A stretch of 64,000 nucleotides of DNA, from positions 2,604,001 to 2,668,000 of the forward strand of contig NZ_CP029191.1 of NCBI RefSeq assembly GCF_008642335.1, in the 5' to 3' direction. The notes under the pieces are model-generated. The model was not told the DNA's origin. It worked only from the letters and a program-made list of their open reading frames with translations, and did no database searches. The translations under genes were made by a program, and so were the position numbers. Shown here in pieces: positions 21,794 to 28,869 of the stretch. The number at the start of each line of letters is the position of its first letter. The stretch's first letter is position 1. This DNA is from Streptomyces venezuelae. GTDB lineage: Bacteria; Actinomycetota; Actinomycetes; Streptomycetales; Streptomycetaceae.

Positions 21794-24700
21794 TCAGGCC
21801 TCGTCGGCGCCGACGGAGACGCCGGAGGGCGCCTGCTCCGCCGCTGCGGCCTTCTTCGCCGTCGCCTTCGTCGCCTTCTTGGCCGTCGTCTTCTTGGCGG
21901 CCGTCTTCTTGGCCGCGGTCTTCTTTGCGGCCGTCTTCTTCGCGGGCGCCTTCTTGGCCGCCGTCTTGCGCGCCGTCTTCTTGGCCGGAGCGGCGTCCTC
22001 GGCGGGTGCCTCGGACTCTGTCGCGGCCTTCTCGGCGGGCTGCTCGGCCGGCTTCTCGGCCGACGGGACGACCATGACGGCCGCCTCTGCGGACGCGGTC
22101 GGCGCGGCGGCCTTGCGCACCGCACGGCGGCGCGGACGCGGCGGCGCGGCGTCGGCGACGGGCGCCTCGGTCGCGGTCTCGGCGACCTGCTCCACCTTCG
22201 GGGCCTCAGCCTTCGGGGCCTCCGTCACGACGATCTCGGTGGCCTCGGGCTCGGCGGCCTTCGGCGAACCCGCGGGCGACGTGGCCTTGCGGACCGCACG
22301 GCGGCGCGTACGTCCCTTCGGCGCGGCGTCGTCCACCGGCGCCTCGGGAGCCGCCGGAGCCGCGGTGGCCTCGGCGTGCGCCTCCTGGGCCGCCTCGACG
22401 GCCGCGGGGCTGCCCACCATCGGGTCCTCGACGGCCGGGGCCTCGGTGCGGGCGACGTCGGACTCGACGACCGGCACCTCGGCGTCCTTGGCGGCGGCCT
22501 TCGCGGCCCGCTCCGCCTTCTGGGCGGCCTTGGCCTTCTTGCCCGACTTCTTCGCGGCCTTCGGAGCCTCGTCCTTGGCGGCGTCCGCCTGCAAGGCGTC
22601 GGCCTGCGGAGCCTCCTCCACCGGGGCGGCCTCCGCGCGCGGAGCGCCCGCCGGAGCCGACACCCGGCGCGTCGCACGCCGCCGCGAACGGCCGCGGGAC
22701 GACGCGGCGGCCTCGGCCTCGGCCGCGCTGCTGTAGAGCTCCTCGTCCGGGACGAACTCGGGCTCGGGCAGCGCCACCGGAGCGGCGACCTCCGCCGCGA
22801 CCTCCGCCGCGGTCTCGGTCTCCGGCTCGGCGGCGACGTCGGCCGACTCCACCTCGTGCGTGTGCTCGTGACCGTGGTCGTGCTGGTCGGAGCCGCCGCG
22901 GCCGCGCTTCTTGCGCTTGCCGCCGCCACCGACGGAGGTGGGCTGCTCCATGTGCACGATGACGCCGCGGCCGTTGCAGTGCACGCAAGTCTCGGAGAAG
23001 GACTCCAGGAGGCCCTGTCCGACGCGCTTGCGAGTCATCTGGACCAGGCCGAGCGAGGTGACCTCGGCGACCTGGTGCTTGGTCCTGTCCCGGCCCAGGC
23101 ACTCCAGGAGGCGCCGCAGGACCAGGTCCCTGTTCGACTCCAGGACCATGTCGATGAAGTCGATGACGACGATGCCGCCCAGGTCGCGCAGGCGCAGCTG
23201 GCGCACGATCTCCTCGGCCGCTTCGAGGTTGTTCCTCGTCACGGTCTCTTCGAGGTTGCCGCCCTGTCCGGTGAACTTGCCGGTGTTGACGTCGACGACG
23301 ATCATCGCCTCGGTCTTGTCGATCACCAGCGAGCCGCCGCTCGGCAGCCAGACCTTGCGGTCCAGGGCCTTGGCGAGCTGCTCGTCGATCCGGTACGTCG
23401 CGAAGACGTCGACCTCGGACGTCCACTTGGAGAGGCGGTCCGCCAGGTCGGGCGCGACGTGCGAGACGTAGCCGTGGATGGTCTGCCACGCGTCGTCGCC
23501 GCTGACGATGACCTTGGAGAAGTCCTCGTTGAAGATGTCGCGGACGACGCGGACGGTCATGTCCGGCTCGCCGTAGAGCAGGCCCGGCGCGCTCGTCGAG
23601 GCCGCCTTCGACTTCTTCTGGATGTCCTCCCACTGCTGCTGCAGACGCTCGACGTCGCGGCGCAGCTCGTCCTCGCTCGCGCCCTCGGCGGCGGTGCGCA
23701 CGATGACGCCCGCGTCCTCGGGGACGATCTTCTTGAGGATGGTCTTCAGACGCGCGCGCTCGGTGTCGGGCAGCTTGCGGCTGATGCCGGTCATCGAGCC
23801 CTCGGGCACGTAGACCAGGTAGCGGCCGGGCAGCGAGACCTGGCTGGTGAGGCGGGCGCCCTTGTGGCCGATCGGGTCCTTCGTGACCTGCACGAGGACC
23901 GACTGGCCGGACTTCAGGGCGGACTCGATGCGGCGGGGGCCGTTGGCCATCCCGAGCGCCTCGAAGTTGACCTCACCGGCGTACAGGACGGCGTTGCGGC
24001 CCTTGCCGATGTCGATGAACGCGGCCTCCATGGACGGCAGCACGTTCTGGACCTTGCCCAGGTAGACGTTGCCGACGTACGAGGTGGCCTGCTCCTTGTT
24101 GACGTAGTGCTCCACGAGCACGTTGTCCTCGAGGACGCCGATCTGGGTGCGCTCGCCGTTCTGGCGGACGACCATCACGCGCTCGACGGCCTCACGGCGG
24201 GCCAGGAACTCGGCCTCCGTGATGATCGGGACGCGGCGGCGGCCCTGCTCGCGGCCCTCGCGGCGGCGCTGCTTCTTGGCCTCCAGGCGGGTCGAGCCCT
24301 TGATGGACTGGACCTCGTCGGCGCCGGTGCCGGGCTCGCGCTCCTCCTTCTTGCGGGGCTCTCGGACCTTGACGACCGTACGCTCCGGGTCGCCGTCGCC
24401 CGGCTCGCCCTCGGCGGAGTCACCGGCGCGGCGACGGCGGCGACGACGGCGACGGCTGCTGCTGGAACCGGCACCGCCGGACTCCGCGGCGTCGTCGGCG
24501 CCGTTGGTGTCGTCGTGCTCATCGGACTCGTCGGCCTCGTCGGACGCGCCCTCGTCGGAGTGCTCCTGCTGGTCGGCGGCGGCAGAGGTGTCGGCGTCGT
24601 CGGACTCGCCCGACGCGTCGTTCTGCTCGTTGTCCTGGTCGGCGGAGTCACCGCGGCGACGGCGACGGCCACCGCGACGGCGACGGCGGCCCTGGCGCTC

Positions 24701-26098
24701 GCCGGACTCCTCCGTGTCGTCGTCGGATTCGGCCTGCTCGGCGGCGGCCTCCTCGGGCTCCTCGGCCTGCTGCTCCTCGACAGGGGCGGCCTTGACGGGC
24801 TCGCGCTCCTCGGCGTCGGGCTGCTCGTCCGCGGCGCGACGGCGGCGGCGACGGCGCGGCGTCGTCTCCTCCTCGGCGACGGGGGCGGGCGTGGGCTCGG
24901 GCTCGGCGGGCGTGTCCTCGGCGGCCTCGGCGGCGGCTGCCGCGGCGGCGCGCTCCGGGGTCTGGAACATCGGCTCGGCGAACACCGGGGCCTGGAAGAC
25001 GGCGACGGCGGGGCGGGCGGGCTTGCGGCCGCCGTCCTCGCCGGACTCCTCGGCGCGCTGGGCCTTGCGGGCCTTGTGTCCGGACGGCGCGGAGAACCCG
25101 GTGGCCGCGGCCTTGCGGGTGGCGCGGCGGCGACGGCCGCGGGGCGCCTCGTCCTCGGCCGCGTCGGCTGCGGCTTCGTCGGCCGGTGCCTTCTCGGCGG
25201 CGGCCGGCTGGTCGGCGAACTTGGCGGCGACCTCGTGCTCGGCGGTCTGCGGCGCACCGGCGGGCGCGGAGGTGCCACGGGTCGCACGGCGACGCGTGCG
25301 GCCCTTGGGCGCGTCCTCCTCGGCCACCGGCTCAGCCTGCGCGGGGGCCACGGGGGCCTCCTCGACGGCGGCCGTCTCCTCGGCGGGGGTCTGCGGCTCC
25401 GCGGCGGGCGCGGAGGCGCCACGGGTCGCACGACGGCGCGCACGGCCCTTGGGCGCGTCCTCCTCGGCCACCGGCTCAGCCTGCGCGGGGGCCACGGGGG
25501 CCTCCTCGACGGCGGCCGTCTCCTCGGCGGTGGTCCGCGGCTCCGCGGCGGGCGCGGAGGTGCCACGGGTGGCGCGACGGCGCGTGCGGCCCTTGGGCGC
25601 GTCCTCCTCGGCGACCGGCTCGGCCTGCGCGGGCGTCTCCTCCGCGGCGGCCTGCGGCGCACCGGCGGGGGCGGAGGCGCGGCGCGTGGCGCGGCGGCGC
25701 GGGCGGGCGGCGGGGGCCTCGGCGGCCTCCTCCTGCGGGGTGGCCTCGGGTGCCGCATCGGCGGCGGGCGCGGGTGCGGCGGCGGGCTCAGCGGCCTCGG
25801 TGGCCTCGACCGCCTGCGGCGCGCCCGCCGGGGCGGAGGCGCGGCGGGTGGCACGGCGGCGTGCGCGGGGCGCGGGGGCCTCGCCGGCCTCGGGCGTCTG
25901 CGCGGGCTCCTCGGCCGCTGCCGCGGCGGGGGCCTCTTCGGAGGCGGGGGTGGCCGGTATGGCCGGAGCCGCGGCGTCGGCGGCGCCGGTCGGCGGGCCC
26001 GCCGGACGCGATGCGGCGCGGCGCCTGCGGCGCGGCGGCAGGGTGTCGCTGGGGGTGTTGTTGTCCGAGCCCTCGGTGGGTTCGTTCGGCTCAAGCAT
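21794..26098 (-). CDS. rne: RNase E/G family ribonuclease (very long)
   Basis: A 1434-residue endoribonuclease. The catalytic core spans about residues 615-1050: an S1-like RNA-binding part (YVGNVYLGKVQNVLPSMEAAFID), the DNase I-like part with the metal site DVNTGKF and IDFIDM, and the Zn-link CVHC at ~1037-1040. The N-terminal ~600 residues are disordered, rich in Ala/Glu/Arg, and include 48-residue repeats. The C-terminal ~370 residues are also disordered and end in a Lys/Ala-rich tract. In Streptomyces RNase ES the flanking regions are known to be large (from memory), so core and length fit. It is the last of a series of minus-strand genes, before the PLD gene. Confidence 0.95.
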   Translation of the reverse strand: MLEPNEPTEGSDNNTPSDTLPPRRRRRAASRPAGPPTGAADAAAPAIPATPASEEAPAAAAAEEPAQTPEAGEAPAPRARRRATRRASAPAGAPQAVEATEAAEPAAAPAPAADAAPEATPQEEAAEAPAARPRRRATRRASAPAGAPQAAAEETPAQAEPVAEEDAPKGRTRRRATRGTSAPAAEPRTTAEETAAVEEAPVAPAQAEPVAEEDAPKGRARRRATRGASAPAAEPQTPAEETAAVEEAPVAPAQAEPVAEEDAPKGRTRRRATRGTSAPAGAPQTAEHEVAAKFADQPAAAEKAPADEAAADAAEDEAPRGRRRRATRKAAATGFSAPSGHKARKAQRAEESGEDGGRKPARPAVAVFQAPVFAEPMFQTPERAAAAAAAEAAEDTPAEPEPTPAPVAEEETTPRRRRRRRAADEQPDAEEREPVKAAPVEEQQAEEPEEAAAEQAESDDDTEESGERQGRRRRRGGRRRRRGDSADQDNEQNDASGESDDADTSAAADQQEHSDEGASDEADESDEHDDTNGADDAAESGGAGSSSSRRRRRRRRRAGDSAEGEPGDGDPERTVVKVREPRKKEEREPGTGADEVQSIKGSTRLEAKKQRRREGREQGRRRVPIITEAEFLARREAVERVMVVRQNGERTQIGVLEDNVLVEHYVNKEQATSYVGNVYLGKVQNVLPSMEAAFIDIGKGRNAVLYAGEVNFEALGMANGPRRIESALKSGQSVLVQVTKDPIGHKGARLTSQVSLPGRYLVYVPEGSMTGISRKLPDTERARLKTILKKIVPEDAGVIVRTAAEGASEDELRRDVERLQQQWEDIQKKSKAASTSAPGLLYGEPDMTVRVVRDIFNEDFSKVIVSGDDAWQTIHGYVSHVAPDLADRLSKWTSEVDVFATYRIDEQLAKALDRKVWLPSGGSLVIDKTEAMIVVDVNTGKFTGQGGNLEETVTRNNLEAAEEIVRQLRLRDLGGIVVIDFIDMVLESNRDLVLRRLLECLGRDRTKHQVAEVTSLGLVQMTRKRVGQGLLESFSETCVHCNGRGVIVHMEQPTSVGGGGKRKKRGRGGSDQHDHGHEHTHEVESADVAAEPETETAAEVAAEVAAPVALPEPEFVPDEELYSSAAEAEAAASSRGRSRRRATRRVSAPAGAPRAEAAPVEEAPQADALQADAAKDEAPKAAKKSGKKAKAAQKAERAAKAAAKDAEVPVVESDVARTEAPAVEDPMVGSPAAVEAAQEAHAEATAAPAAPEAPVDDAAPKGRTRRRAVRKATSPAGSPKAAEPEATEIVVTEAPKAEAPKVEQVAETATEAPVADAAPPRPRRRAVRKAAAPTASAEAAVMVVPSAEKPAEQPAEKAATESEAPAEDAAPAKKTARKTAAKKAPAKKTAAKKTAAKKTAAKKTTAKKATKATAKKAAAAEQAPSGVSVGADEA
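25256..25700. repeat. 144-bp direct repeats in rne 5' region
   Basis: GCCCTTGGGC and the surrounding sequence recur at 25301, 25445 and 25589, a 144-bp period, about three copies. They encode 48-residue units (APKGR-T-RRRATRG...AEPVAEED) in the disordered N-terminal region of RNase E. Confidence 0.8.
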
Positions 26099-26329: not shown

Positions 26330-27124
26330 TTACCGGGGGCCTTCCGGCGCCGGCGCCTTCGCGGCGGCAGGTACGGCGGCCGTGGGTGGAGCGGCCGTGT
26401 CTGCCTCGCGGTCGGGCGCGAGCGGGTCGGTCACCGTGCCGGTCTCTTCATCGAAAAGCCCCTGCGCCAGCCTGGTCACCGCTGCGGGGACCGGCGGCGC
26501 CAGGTCGGCCACAGCTCGGAGACCGGACAGGACGTCGTCAGGTCGTACGGCAGGTGTCACGTGCCGAACAACCAGCCGCAGTATCGCACAGGGCTTGTCG
26601 CTCGGCCTATCGGTGTCGGCGGCGGACGGTCCGTCGTCGACGGTCAGGCTCACCACGGCCTCGCGCGCGTCGAAGGTGCGCATGCCGTTCTTCGTGCGGC
26701 GCTGGACCTCGACCTTCTCGGCCGCCGTGAACTGCTCGGCGGCGCGCTGCGCCACCGCGGGCTCCACGCCGTCCAGGCGCAGCTCCCATACGGAGGCCGT
26801 CAGCCGGTCGGCGAGTCCCGAGGTGCGGGACTCGACGGCGTCGACGATGTCGAGCCCGGCGGGCATCGACTCGTCGAGGAGTTCGCGGAGCTTGTCCGGG
26901 TCGCGCGGTGCGGTGAGCGCGATCTCCAGGTACTCGGCCTCACTGCCCGTGCCGGTGGGTGCGGCATTGGCGTACGACACCTTGGGGTGCGGGGTGAAGC
27001 CCGCCGAGTACGCCATGGGCACCTCGGCGCGGCGCAGCGCACGCTCGAAGGCGCGCTGGAAGTCACGGTGGCTGGTGAACCGGAGGCGGCCGCGCTTGGT
27101 GTAGCGCAGTCGGATGCGCTGCAC
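26330..27124 (-). CDS. DUF2344 (TIGR03936-type) radical SAM-associated protein
   Basis: A 264-residue protein of the family that accompanies TIGR03960 radical SAM proteins. The N-terminus has RYTKRGRLRFTSHRDFQRAFERA, then PHPKVSYANAAPTGTGSEAEYLEI. The last ~40 residues are Pro/Ala-rich. The start is uncertain: GTG 27124 has no clear ribosome binding site, but an AAGGA lies just before the stop of the upstream gene and could drive a non-standard CTG near 27166. It is the last gene of the unit with the repeat membrane protein, GNAT and radical SAM genes. Molecular role unknown. Confidence 0.8.
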   Translation of the reverse strand: MQRIRLRYTKRGRLRFTSHRDFQRAFERALRRAEVPMAYSAGFTPHPKVSYANAAPTGTGSEAEYLEIALTAPRDPDKLRELLDESMPAGLDIVDAVESRTSGLADRLTASVWELRLDGVEPAVAQRAAEQFTAAEKVEVQRRTKNGMRTFDAREAVVSLTVDDGPSAADTDRPSDKPCAILRLVVRHVTPAVRPDDVLSGLRAVADLAPPVPAAVTRLAQGLFDEETGTVTDPLAPDREADTAAPPTAAVPAAAKAPAPEGPR

Positions 27125-27171
27125 CGCGGGTGCGGGCGGCGGGCCTACGGGCTGTCGCTTGCCCAGTGTCG

Positions 27172-28317
27172 TCAGTCCTTCATGAGTGCGGTCGTACTGC
27201 TGCCTAGAGTACGTGTGTCGGGCGTGTCGGGTTCCCGCCGGGCCACCGGAACCGCCTCGCGCGGCGCTCCGAACAGCATGCGCCGTACGTCGGCGCGCGC
27301 CTGACGGGCGGTGTCCCTGGCGGAGGCGAGGGCGCGCCGCGTGGTGCGGCCGACGCTCCGGGCGGCCGTGGCGACGGGCTTCCACAGCGCGTCGCGGATG
27401 ACGTGCCCGACGGGCGTGAGCACCGTGCGGTACACCCACCTGACCGGCTCGACGAAGATCCACCGAAGGAGTGTGCCGAGGAAGCGGCCCACGGCGCGGG
27501 AGATGTGTCCGGCGATGCGCCACGCGTGTCCGAAGGCGTCGGCGATCTCCCGCGCGACGACGGCGATCGCCCGCCCGATGGGGGTGAGCACCCAGCGCCA
27601 CAGGGCGACGAGGGGCACGACGAAGATCCAGCGGAGCAGCGTGGCGATGCCGCGGCCGACCGGCGAGAGCACGGCCCGGTACAGCCAGACGGCGGGCGCC
27701 ACGATCAGCGTCCGCACCAGCCAGGCGATCGCGATGCCGACCGGCACGACGACGTACCGCCACAGCCCCACCCACGGCCACACGAACACGGCCTTGCCCA
27801 GCCAGACGAGGCCGACCCACAGGGCGTGTCCGACCGGCGTCAGCACGCGCGCGTAGAGCCACGTCGCGGGGATGACGAAGAGGACCCGGCCCAGCCAGGC
27901 GATGCCGTGTCCGATGGGCGTCAGCACGCGCGCGTAGAGCCACATCACCGGGATGACGAACAGGCCGCGGCCGAGCCAGGCGAGGCCCTTGCCGACCGGC
28001 ACGAGCACGTACCGCCACAGGCCGACCCACGGCCACACGAAGACAACCTTGCACAGGAACGTCAGTACCGCGCCGATGGCCCGCCCGACGGGGCGCAGCG
28101 CGTTGCGGTAGAGGAAATTGCCGCACACGGCGAGCGCGTCCCACACCAGGCGCACGGGGACGACGAGCACGAGCACGACGATCCGCACCGGGATGCGGAT
28201 CGCGACGGCGAGACATCCGTCGGCCTGCGCGGGCGCCAAGGGCGGTACGGGCGTCGCAGGCCGCGCGGGCAGCACGGGCTCCGCGACCTGCTGGTCAGGC
28301 CGTTTTTCCAGGTCCAT
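27172..28317 (-). CDS. Repeat membrane protein with 27-residue units
   Basis: A 381-residue protein I do not recognise. Residues ~70-310 are built of about nine copies of a 27-residue unit: W/Y-x-x-V-L-x-P-V/I-G, a W-L-G-R-like middle, then L/V-F-V-x-P-x-x-W-L. Two copies are 31 long, giving a 31/27/27 pattern (85 residues) that is repeated (70-154 and 155-239). Each unit is hydrophobic with Arg at the joints, which suggests membrane-embedded or interfacial helices. The N-terminal ~35 residues are Pro-rich; the C-terminal ~70 are Arg/Ala-rich and soluble. No catalytic motif is seen. It lies 6 bp after the GNAT gene and between it and DUF2344. Confidence 0.75.
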   Translation of the reverse strand: MDLEKRPDQQVAEPVLPARPATPVPPLAPAQADGCLAVAIRIPVRIVVLVLVVPVRLVWDALAVCGNFLYRNALRPVGRAIGAVLTFLCKVVFVWPWVGLWRYVLVPVGKGLAWLGRGLFVIPVMWLYARVLTPIGHGIAWLGRVLFVIPATWLYARVLTPVGHALWVGLVWLGKAVFVWPWVGLWRYVVVPVGIAIAWLVRTLIVAPAVWLYRAVLSPVGRGIATLLRWIFVVPLVALWRWVLTPIGRAIAVVAREIADAFGHAWRIAGHISRAVGRFLGTLLRWIFVEPVRWVYRTVLTPVGHVIRDALWKPVATAARSVGRTTRRALASARDTARQARADVRRMLFGAPREAVPVARREPDTPDTRTLGSSTTALMKD

Positions 28318-28323
28318 GTTGTC

Positions 28324-28869
28324 CTAGACGCGCGCGGCGCCGGTTCGGATCCAGTACCGCAGTTTCCCGCTGCGTTCGTCCTCGAACGTGCCGCCCGCGG
28401 CCTCGATGACCTTGCGCGAGCCGATGTTGTCGGTGTCGCAGGTCACCAGGACGGATTCCAGGCCGAGTCGGGCGGCGTGCGGGAGGCAGGCGCGGAGCAT
28501 GTCGGTGGCGTGGCCGCGGCGTCGGGCGGTGGGGCGGACGTCGTAGCCGATGTGGCCGCCGTACTCGCGCAGGAAGCGGGTGGCGATGGTGTGCCGGACG
28601 GTGATCCGGCCGAGGTAGGCGGCGCCGTCGACGTACCAGAGGGTCGTGACGGGGACGGAGTGCGCCGCGGTGGGGTGCTCGGCGGCGCGGACCTCGGCGA
28701 CGTACGCCTCGAAGACCGCCGGGTCGCGCCAGCGCCGGCCGTACTCGCGCAGGGTGGCGCCGAGCGTCGTGTCGTCGTCGGGCCCGCCCCGGCCCTCGGC
28801 CCGGAACTCCTCCATCGCGGCGATGAAGGAGCGGTGCACCAGGCCGGAGGGCGGGGCGAGTCGAGGCAC
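28324..28869 (-). CDS. GNAT family N-acetyltransferase
   Basis: A 181-residue GNAT acetyltransferase. The acetyl-CoA-binding segment is GYDVRPTARRRGHATDML (motif A, R-R-x-G-H-A), preceded by IGYDV and followed by ESVLVTCDTDNIGSRKVIEAAGG, typical of the RimJ/RimL-like subgroup. Start GTG at 28869; it begins 15 bp after the radical SAM gene stop. The substrate is unknown; the context gives no clear hint. Confidence 0.88.
   Translation of the reverse strand: MPRLAPPSGLVHRSFIAAMEEFRAEGRGGPDDDTTLGATLREYGRRWRDPAVFEAYVAEVRAAEHPTAAHSVPVTTLWYVDGAAYLGRITVRHTIATRFLREYGGHIGYDVRPTARRRGHATDMLRACLPHAARLGLESVLVTCDTDNIGSRKVIEAAGGTFEDERSGKLRYWIRTGAARV

Follow-up and report, generated by a model that had tools for sequence, protein, structure and literature searches.

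A proline-punctuated tandem-repeat protein of Streptomyces venezuelae and its possible arrangement in the membrane

Introduction

The stretch of DNA considered here (the window, 64,000 nucleotides from Streptomyces venezuelae) carries a run of minus-strand genes in the order mreB, mreC, mreD, pbp2, rodA, CYTH-CHAD, TIGR03960 radical SAM, GNAT, the repeat gene, DUF2344/TIGR03936 and rne/rns. What kind of protein does the repeat gene encode, and how would such a protein sit in a membrane? An earlier note on this DNA had described the product as a membrane protein built from nine 27-residue units, placed at 27387..28110, which is the repeat part of a 381-residue open reading frame (27172-28317).

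The question is of interest for several reasons. The protein belongs to a conserved family that matches none of the curated models searched, its sharp sequence grammar leads to a testable prediction of how it sits in the membrane, and the number of units varies between close strains, which provides a natural length series. In addition, two putative promoters are nested in the 3' ends of the preceding genes, and the locus cautions that near-perfect conservation of a C-terminal peptide may stem from constraint at the level of the DNA.

The repeat gene and its product

The frame is considered to be coding because its GC content by codon position is 0.73/0.52/0.93 and because dN/dS against seven relatives is 0.15-0.64 in the N-cap, the repeats and the C-cap; in the same comparisons, values for the short linker and the tail (11-15 codons) range from 0.22 to 1.73. 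The gene is single-copy in its own genome. In an alignment of 46 rows, the N-cap (R-x-PVRIVVLVLVVPVR-x-x-WDAL) and the C-cap are strongly conserved and the middle is variable. The features of the locus are collected in Table 1.

Table 1. Features of the repeat locus (positions in the window)
Feature	Position	Strand	Basis
Repeat protein, probably of the membrane, coding sequence, 381 aa	27172..28317	minus	ORF list; GC3 0.93; dN/dS below 1 in caps and repeats
N-cap, residues 33-56 (DGCLAVAIRIPVRIVVLVLVVPVR)	28150..28221	minus	many invariant or nearly invariant columns, 46-row alignment
Seven consecutive P-[VI]-G units (PxG at residues 76, 107, 134, 161, 192, 219, 246)	27532..28122	minus	motif spacing, unit profile
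First 85-residue block	27790..28044	minus	lag-85 test
Second 85-residue block	27535..27789	minus	lag-85 test
Eighth unit (PxG at residue 302), within the conserved C-cap	27364..27444	minus	unit profile
Putative ECF-like promoter of the repeat gene, GGATCC-N16-CGTCTA	28325..28352	minus	CGTCT ends 8 nt before ATG
Putative ECF-like promoter of DUF2344, GGAAC-N17-CGTAnnCT, inside the 3' end of the repeat gene	27206..27235	minus	
Last codons and stop of the repeat gene (AAGGACTGA), with a predicted second role as Shine-Dalgarno sequence of DUF2344	27172..27180	minus	codon invariance; Shine-Dalgarno role predicted
GNAT gene, upstream of the repeat gene in some relatives only	28324..28869	minus	
DUF2344/TIGR03936 gene, probable CTG start at 27166, alternative GTG at 27124	26330..27166	minus	start predicted

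Eight P-[VI]-G motifs are spaced in the window protein by 31, 27, 27, 31, 27, 27 and 56 residues, which bears out the double 31-27-27 spacing noticed earlier. A profile of the unit, trained on 57 other members of the family (301 units), finds eight units in the window protein above the 99% shuffle limit. Eight of the nine units originally counted are therefore clear; the ninth corresponds only to a degenerate stretch at about residues 257-291, which on our reading is hidden in the final 56-residue interval.

The longer period is also distinct. When residues 41-312 were compared with themselves and with 2,000 shuffles, a lag of 85 gave 63 identities in 187 positions (shuffles: mean 18.6, maximum 33; z=11) and a lag of 27 gave 73 in 245 (mean 24.0, maximum 41). 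The segment WPWVGLWRYV is identical in both 85-residue blocks, as had been reported. The inferred duplication of a whole block also agrees with the S. venezuelae protein P0005, which is shorter by exactly 85 residues than P0001, P0002 and the window protein; the edge of the gap is at the repeated WPWVGLWRYV, and the difference rests on this one database protein. At the DNA level, a 189-nt stretch is repeated 255 nt away with 72% identity, and the block duplication is thus not recent.

Repeat patterns change fast in the family: 81 loci display 39 distinct proline patterns, and at least 47 pattern changes are needed on a quick DUF2344 tree of the 81 rows.

The grammar of the unit

The 27-residue period proposed earlier is real, yet the unit is composite. 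Successive prolines in the core of the window protein are separated by 11-22-20-11-16-11-16-11-20-11-16-11-16-11-45-11-12 residues, which resolves the 27-residue unit into 11+16 and the 31-residue unit into 11+20. Proline-interval and unit statistics were taken from the best 120 of 1,359 homologues, plus 64 distant members where stated, proteins that are related rather than independent. In the best 120, 11 is the commonest interval (725 of 1,708, with 51 expected) and 16 occurs 236 times (41 expected). Intervals of 11, 12 and 16 likewise lead in the 64 distant members (207, 143 and 88 of 710). In one member, P0181, repeated segments of the VVVVPLSFLWHY type have their prolines close together, and the proline grammar takes on a different appearance.

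The unit profile, a search that the earlier note had suggested, also recognizes 5-10 units per protein in 63 held-out (but related) members. It is weaker outside Streptomyces: of the 64 distant members, 39 have only 1-3 recognized units and 25 have 4-8.

Within the 301 units, basic residues recur at positions 14 (91%), 21 (72%) and 6 (49%). The repeats contain 7.7% R and 7.8% W, and their 8.7% R+K is set against only 1.5% D+E. The mean unit is periodic in hydrophobicity, with a maximum near 95-100 degrees and a weaker one at 160-180; by permutation, p for this amphipathy is 0.019 for the full unit and 0.039 for positions 11-26. For the 11-residue part alone (positions 1-10), amphipathy at 100 degrees does not reach significance (p 0.27), nor does it for positions 14-26 (p 0.09).

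A family outside the curated collections

A phmmer search found 1,359 homologues among 8,000 scored proteins. Among the best 120 of these, all organism names are Streptomyces, lengths run from 293 to 499 residues, and the annotation is hypothetical or integral membrane protein. One homologue, P0256, is annotated as an MFS transporter; no transporter family matches the window protein, and the name looks wrong. A profile for distant members lists 64 proteins, those with an organism name being from Nocardia, Streptomyces, Kitasatospora, Actinomadura and one unclassified Streptomycetaceae. Whole genomes matching the family number 75 of 150 sampled in the bacterial family and 28 of 38 in the genus Streptomyces; in a sample of the class, 48 of 394 genomes and 8 of 137 genera match, two of these genera by marginal hits only. 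Marginal hits in very long open frames (G089, G101, G110, G151 and G270; E 4.5e-4 to 1.1e-5) look like chance and were excluded as members. Over 36 loci, the forward profile matched a single open frame per locus in 22 (weakest E 3.7e-33; ten of these loci had contributed to the training alignment) and the reversed profile none.

Searches of the curated collections returned no Pfam family for the window protein at E up to 10 or for ten homologues at E up to 1, no NCBIfam family for the window protein, no PADLOC defence family at E up to 1, and only three weak PHROGs matches (best E 0.1). Among PDB chain sequences, the best E was 0.54, with none below 0.5. An anti-phage or phage origin was rejected on the PADLOC and PHROGs results. 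No paper on the protein was found in the open-access literature, including under likely S. coelicolor locus tags. The proposal of a new repeat family thus holds up, with many homologues of variable repeat number; likeness to tandem amphipathic-helix repeat proteins would be one of analogy and not of membership.

How might the protein sit in the membrane?

A membrane location, as claimed before, is likely from composition. The mean hydropathy of a 19-residue window reaches 1.5-2.6 at seven places in the protein, and some sources call the homologues integral membrane proteins. Each of the seven hydrophobic peaks, on the other hand, carries charge in its central 13 residues (mean 1.43), compared with two of ten peaks in RodA (mean 0.20) and four of six in MreD (mean 0.67). 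Charged peaks are the rule in the family, with 610 of 751 in the best 120 of 1,359 homologues and 304 of 350 in the 64 distant members. The longest run free of R, K, D, E, H, N and Q in the window protein is 14 residues. Among the best 120 of 1,359 homologues, however, 93 have a stretch of at least 19 residues free of charged and polar residues, which also lacks proline in 81; 55 have two to four such stretches. In the distant members, the stretch is present in 18 of 64 and also proline-free in 5 of 64.

We favor, narrowly and with a probability of about 0.36, an arrangement in which the repeat protein is a scaffold lying in the plane of the membrane, because charge is present in the core of every one of the seven hydrophobic peaks. 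Short segments, probably helices, each beginning with proline and mostly 11 and 16 residues long, would follow one another in series, presenting Arg, Lys or His together with Trp and Tyr on an otherwise greasy and almost acid-free surface. Most segments would probably run within the inner leaflet of the cytoplasmic membrane, parallel to its surface, where the arginines could reach anionic lipid head groups, and one to a few longer stretches may span the membrane in many relatives. The N- and C-caps would anchor or terminate the array, and added units would enlarge the area covered. Such an expandable scaffold, expressed from its own ECF-like and probably leaderless promoter, might organize or stiffen the membrane in filamentous actinomycetes.

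The main competitor, only slightly less probable, is a multi-span protein in which the units, or hairpins of 11+16, traverse the bilayer or enter it partway, forming a stacked in-membrane solenoid as the earlier note suggested. The hydropathy peaks, the integral-membrane annotations and the long uncharged stretches of the 93 homologues argue for it; those stretches lowered our odds for the in-plane scaffold from 0.4 to the present value and raised those for the multi-span protein slightly. Moreover, the charge-in-peak test is not clean, because MreD, a real multi-span protein, is charged in four of six peaks. Against it stand the charge in every peak core of the window protein and in most of those of the best 120 homologues, the absence from the window protein of any run beyond 14 residues free of charged and polar residues, the lack of a run of at least 19 in 46 of the 64 distant members, and the basic residues at the same unit positions with no alternation between units. 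The 11- and 16-residue segments bounded by proline are also short for spanning. Could the protein instead coat neutral-lipid droplets, in the manner of perilipins, oleosins or exchangeable apolipoproteins? Streptomyces and Nocardia store triacylglycerol, and 11-residue repeats punctuated by proline are reminiscent of apolipoproteins and perilipins. This reading is nonetheless improbable, given that no Pfam family matches at E up to 10, that the acidic residues of apolipoprotein helices are missing, and that none of 12 papers listed in an open-access search ties the protein to droplets.

Two further possibilities concern the gene rather than the topology. The protein may be the partner of a neighbor, either by tethering RNase ES/DUF2344 to the membrane or by assisting the MreBCD-RodA envelope machinery, which is encoded a few genes away. 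The invariable position directly upstream of DUF2344 in the 80 Streptomyces loci described below and the presence of mre, pbp2 and rodA upstream in the window speak for such a partnership, as does the membrane tethering of E. coli RNase E (PMC10126417). We nevertheless consider it unlikely, because Nocardia and several other-genus homologues have neither rne nor DUF2344 in the fetched stretches, genomes without the repeat gene keep DUF2344 (ten of ten) and rne (eight of ten), the repeat gene and DUF2344 have separate predicted promoters, and several kilobases often separate the repeat gene from the radical SAM gene in relatives. That the gene is just a fast-drifting, GC-rich open frame with no functional product is very improbable. 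The rapid turnover of the repeat pattern and the absence of the gene from some Streptomyces genomes would fit that idea, but the low dN/dS in caps and repeats, the strong conservation of the caps, the presence of homologues in several families and the failure of the reversed profile stand against it.

How does the repeat protein relate to known systems? Exchangeable apolipoproteins of the apoA-I type, perilipins and synucleins consist of tandem amphipathic helical repeats of 11 or 22 residues, and in apolipoproteins proline marks the repeat starts. The repeat protein shares the 11-residue period with all three, but it is far more hydrophobic, rich in arginine and tryptophan and nearly acid-free, alternates 11 with 16, lacks a mixed acidic and basic polar face, and has no Pfam match, nor do its ten searched homologues. 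With MreD and RodA of the same window it has in common high hydropathy and an envelope gene neighborhood, and differs from them in the charge of its peaks, its tandem repeats and the lack of a family match. A bolder extension, which we regard as speculative and probably too strong, would make the family a new structural class: an in-plane membrane solenoid or belt of proline-capped, cationic 11- and 16-residue helices, a prokaryotic counterpart of the exchangeable apolipoproteins by analogy, whose length would be adjusted as whole units are rapidly gained and lost and which would scaffold the hyphal membrane in mycelial actinomycetes.

Putative promoters and the conserved C-terminal tail

Upstream of the repeat gene, the general form G-n-ATCC-N16-GCGTCt-N8-ATG is found. 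The pattern ATC[CG]-N16-CGTC[TC] occurs in 64 of 81 loci (shuffles, 0.2 of 81), and in 61 of these the distance to the start is exactly 8 nt; eight loci from other genera have no ATCC/CGTC match with a 16-nt spacer. Both this pattern and that for DUF2344 were written after the sequences had been seen. Since the -10 box ends 8 nt before the ATG, the mRNA is probably leaderless, with its 5' end at or near the ATG.

The boxes in the window also encode the final codons and stop of GNAT, which raises the question of whether ATCC is a mere GNAT end (W-I-R codons). In 66 loci without an adjacent GNAT, selected independently of the pattern, CGTC[TC] ends 8 nt before the start in 62, and ATCC precedes CGTC in 58, by 16 nt (49) or 17 nt (9), while only 14 have TGGATCC. 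The promoter reading is therefore retained; an open frame of at least 60 codons covers the ATCC region in 23 of those 58. A genome-wide regulon was rejected. The motif has 37 matches in its own genome, compared with 5 for the reversed pattern, but 27 of the 30 examined (L210-L239, the gene's own site included) lie in coding-like frames reading ATC and GTC codons.

The second putative promoter lies within the last 64 nt of the repeat gene. Its pattern, GGAAC-N17-CGTAnnCT, is found upstream of DUF2344 in 80 of 81 loci and has a single match in its own genome. In a set of 140 distinct DUF2344 upstream regions, 107 contain the pair, with a 17-nt spacer in all 107, and 29 of the remaining 33 hold CGTAnnCT within 320 nt; shuffles and reverse complements of these regions gave no pair. 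Among ten loci without the repeat gene, the promoter is present in two (L196 and L197) and missing from eight.

Do these sites resemble known ones? A sigma-70-type promoter scan found none, and each of the two promoters matches only one box of the sigma-E consensus (-35 nnAAC, -10 CGTC, about 17 nt). PMC6767563 gives the Streptomyces sigma-E site of mreB as GGGAAC-N17-CGTCTC; the DUF2344 promoter shares GGAAC and the 17-nt spacer with it and differs in its -10 (CGTA), whereas the repeat gene promoter shares CGTCT with sigma-E sites and differs in its -35 (GnATCC). The term "sco260" is not present in the main text of that paper. Spacers are mostly 18 bp by the counting of another paper (PMC10771440).

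The nesting of the DUF2344 promoter offers an explanation for the tail of the repeat protein. TLGSSTTA is found there in 87 of the best 120 of 1,359 homologues, the codons of the tail hardly vary in 68 of 81 loci, and GC3 over the last 14 codons is 0.49, versus 0.93 further upstream (70 loci). A role of the tail TRTLGSSTTALTKD as a peptide signal for sorting or binding was rejected on codon invariance, low GC3, the promoter boxes and the retention of the DNA block from CGTACTCT onward in L161, which lacks both the repeat gene and the full promoter pair. On this sequence evidence, the conserved tail appears to be a side effect of DNA that serves DUF2344 as promoter and ribosome-binding site. 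The idea of an RNA family in this region was also rejected, with one chance-level Rfam hit elsewhere and a folding z-score of -0.02 for the gene end.

Gene neighborhood

The earlier note placed the gene, correctly, between GNAT and DUF2344, and inside a radical SAM cluster, which is true of the window but does not extend to the family. In the window, the TIGR03960 radical SAM gene adjoins GNAT. All of the 80 named Streptomyces loci have the repeat gene immediately before DUF2344; they are the 80 best among 438 confirmed loci, a sample biased towards the query and linked by shared descent, and GNAT is adjacent in only 13 of them. Streptomycetaceae outside Streptomyces keep the DUF2344 link in L149-L154, L157 and L158, two of them with some kilobases between. 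In Nocardia, the locus L145 (identical to P0122 at 100%) and the congeneric L146 have no rne or DUF2344 within the fetched 4-13 kb, and the same is true of loci L142, L144, L147, L148, L156 and L200-L204 from other genomes. The radical SAM/DUF2344 link is thus not family-defining, because these homologues lie elsewhere.

The candidate CTG start of DUF2344 (27149-27166) lies 5 nt after the repeat gene stop, and a conserved GKRQPEGPPPAPAVQ-type frame precedes the usual GTG in the upstream regions of relatives; DUF2344 probably starts at this CTG.

The repeat gene is dispensable, since it is absent from 10 of 38 sampled Streptomyces genomes; a profile search at the locus found no match in any of the ten. 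The flanking genes are less than 400 nt apart in seven of these, and the other three hold 1.6-2.8 kb of other sequence. DUF2344 is kept in all ten, and rne is seen in eight; contig ends truncate the remaining two stretches.

Many relatives (L040, L041, L046, L047 and others) have several kilobases of extra DNA between the radical SAM gene and the repeat gene. The serine-integrase attachment site of phage phiJoe is 74 bp from the end of the radical SAM gene, according to PMC5311408, and integration of this type at the 3' end of that gene would fit the extra DNA. Finally, the RNase E/G-family protein of the window (1,434 aa; 21794-26098, minus strand) has an N-terminal part with repeated arginine-rich segments of the RRRATR-SAPAG type.
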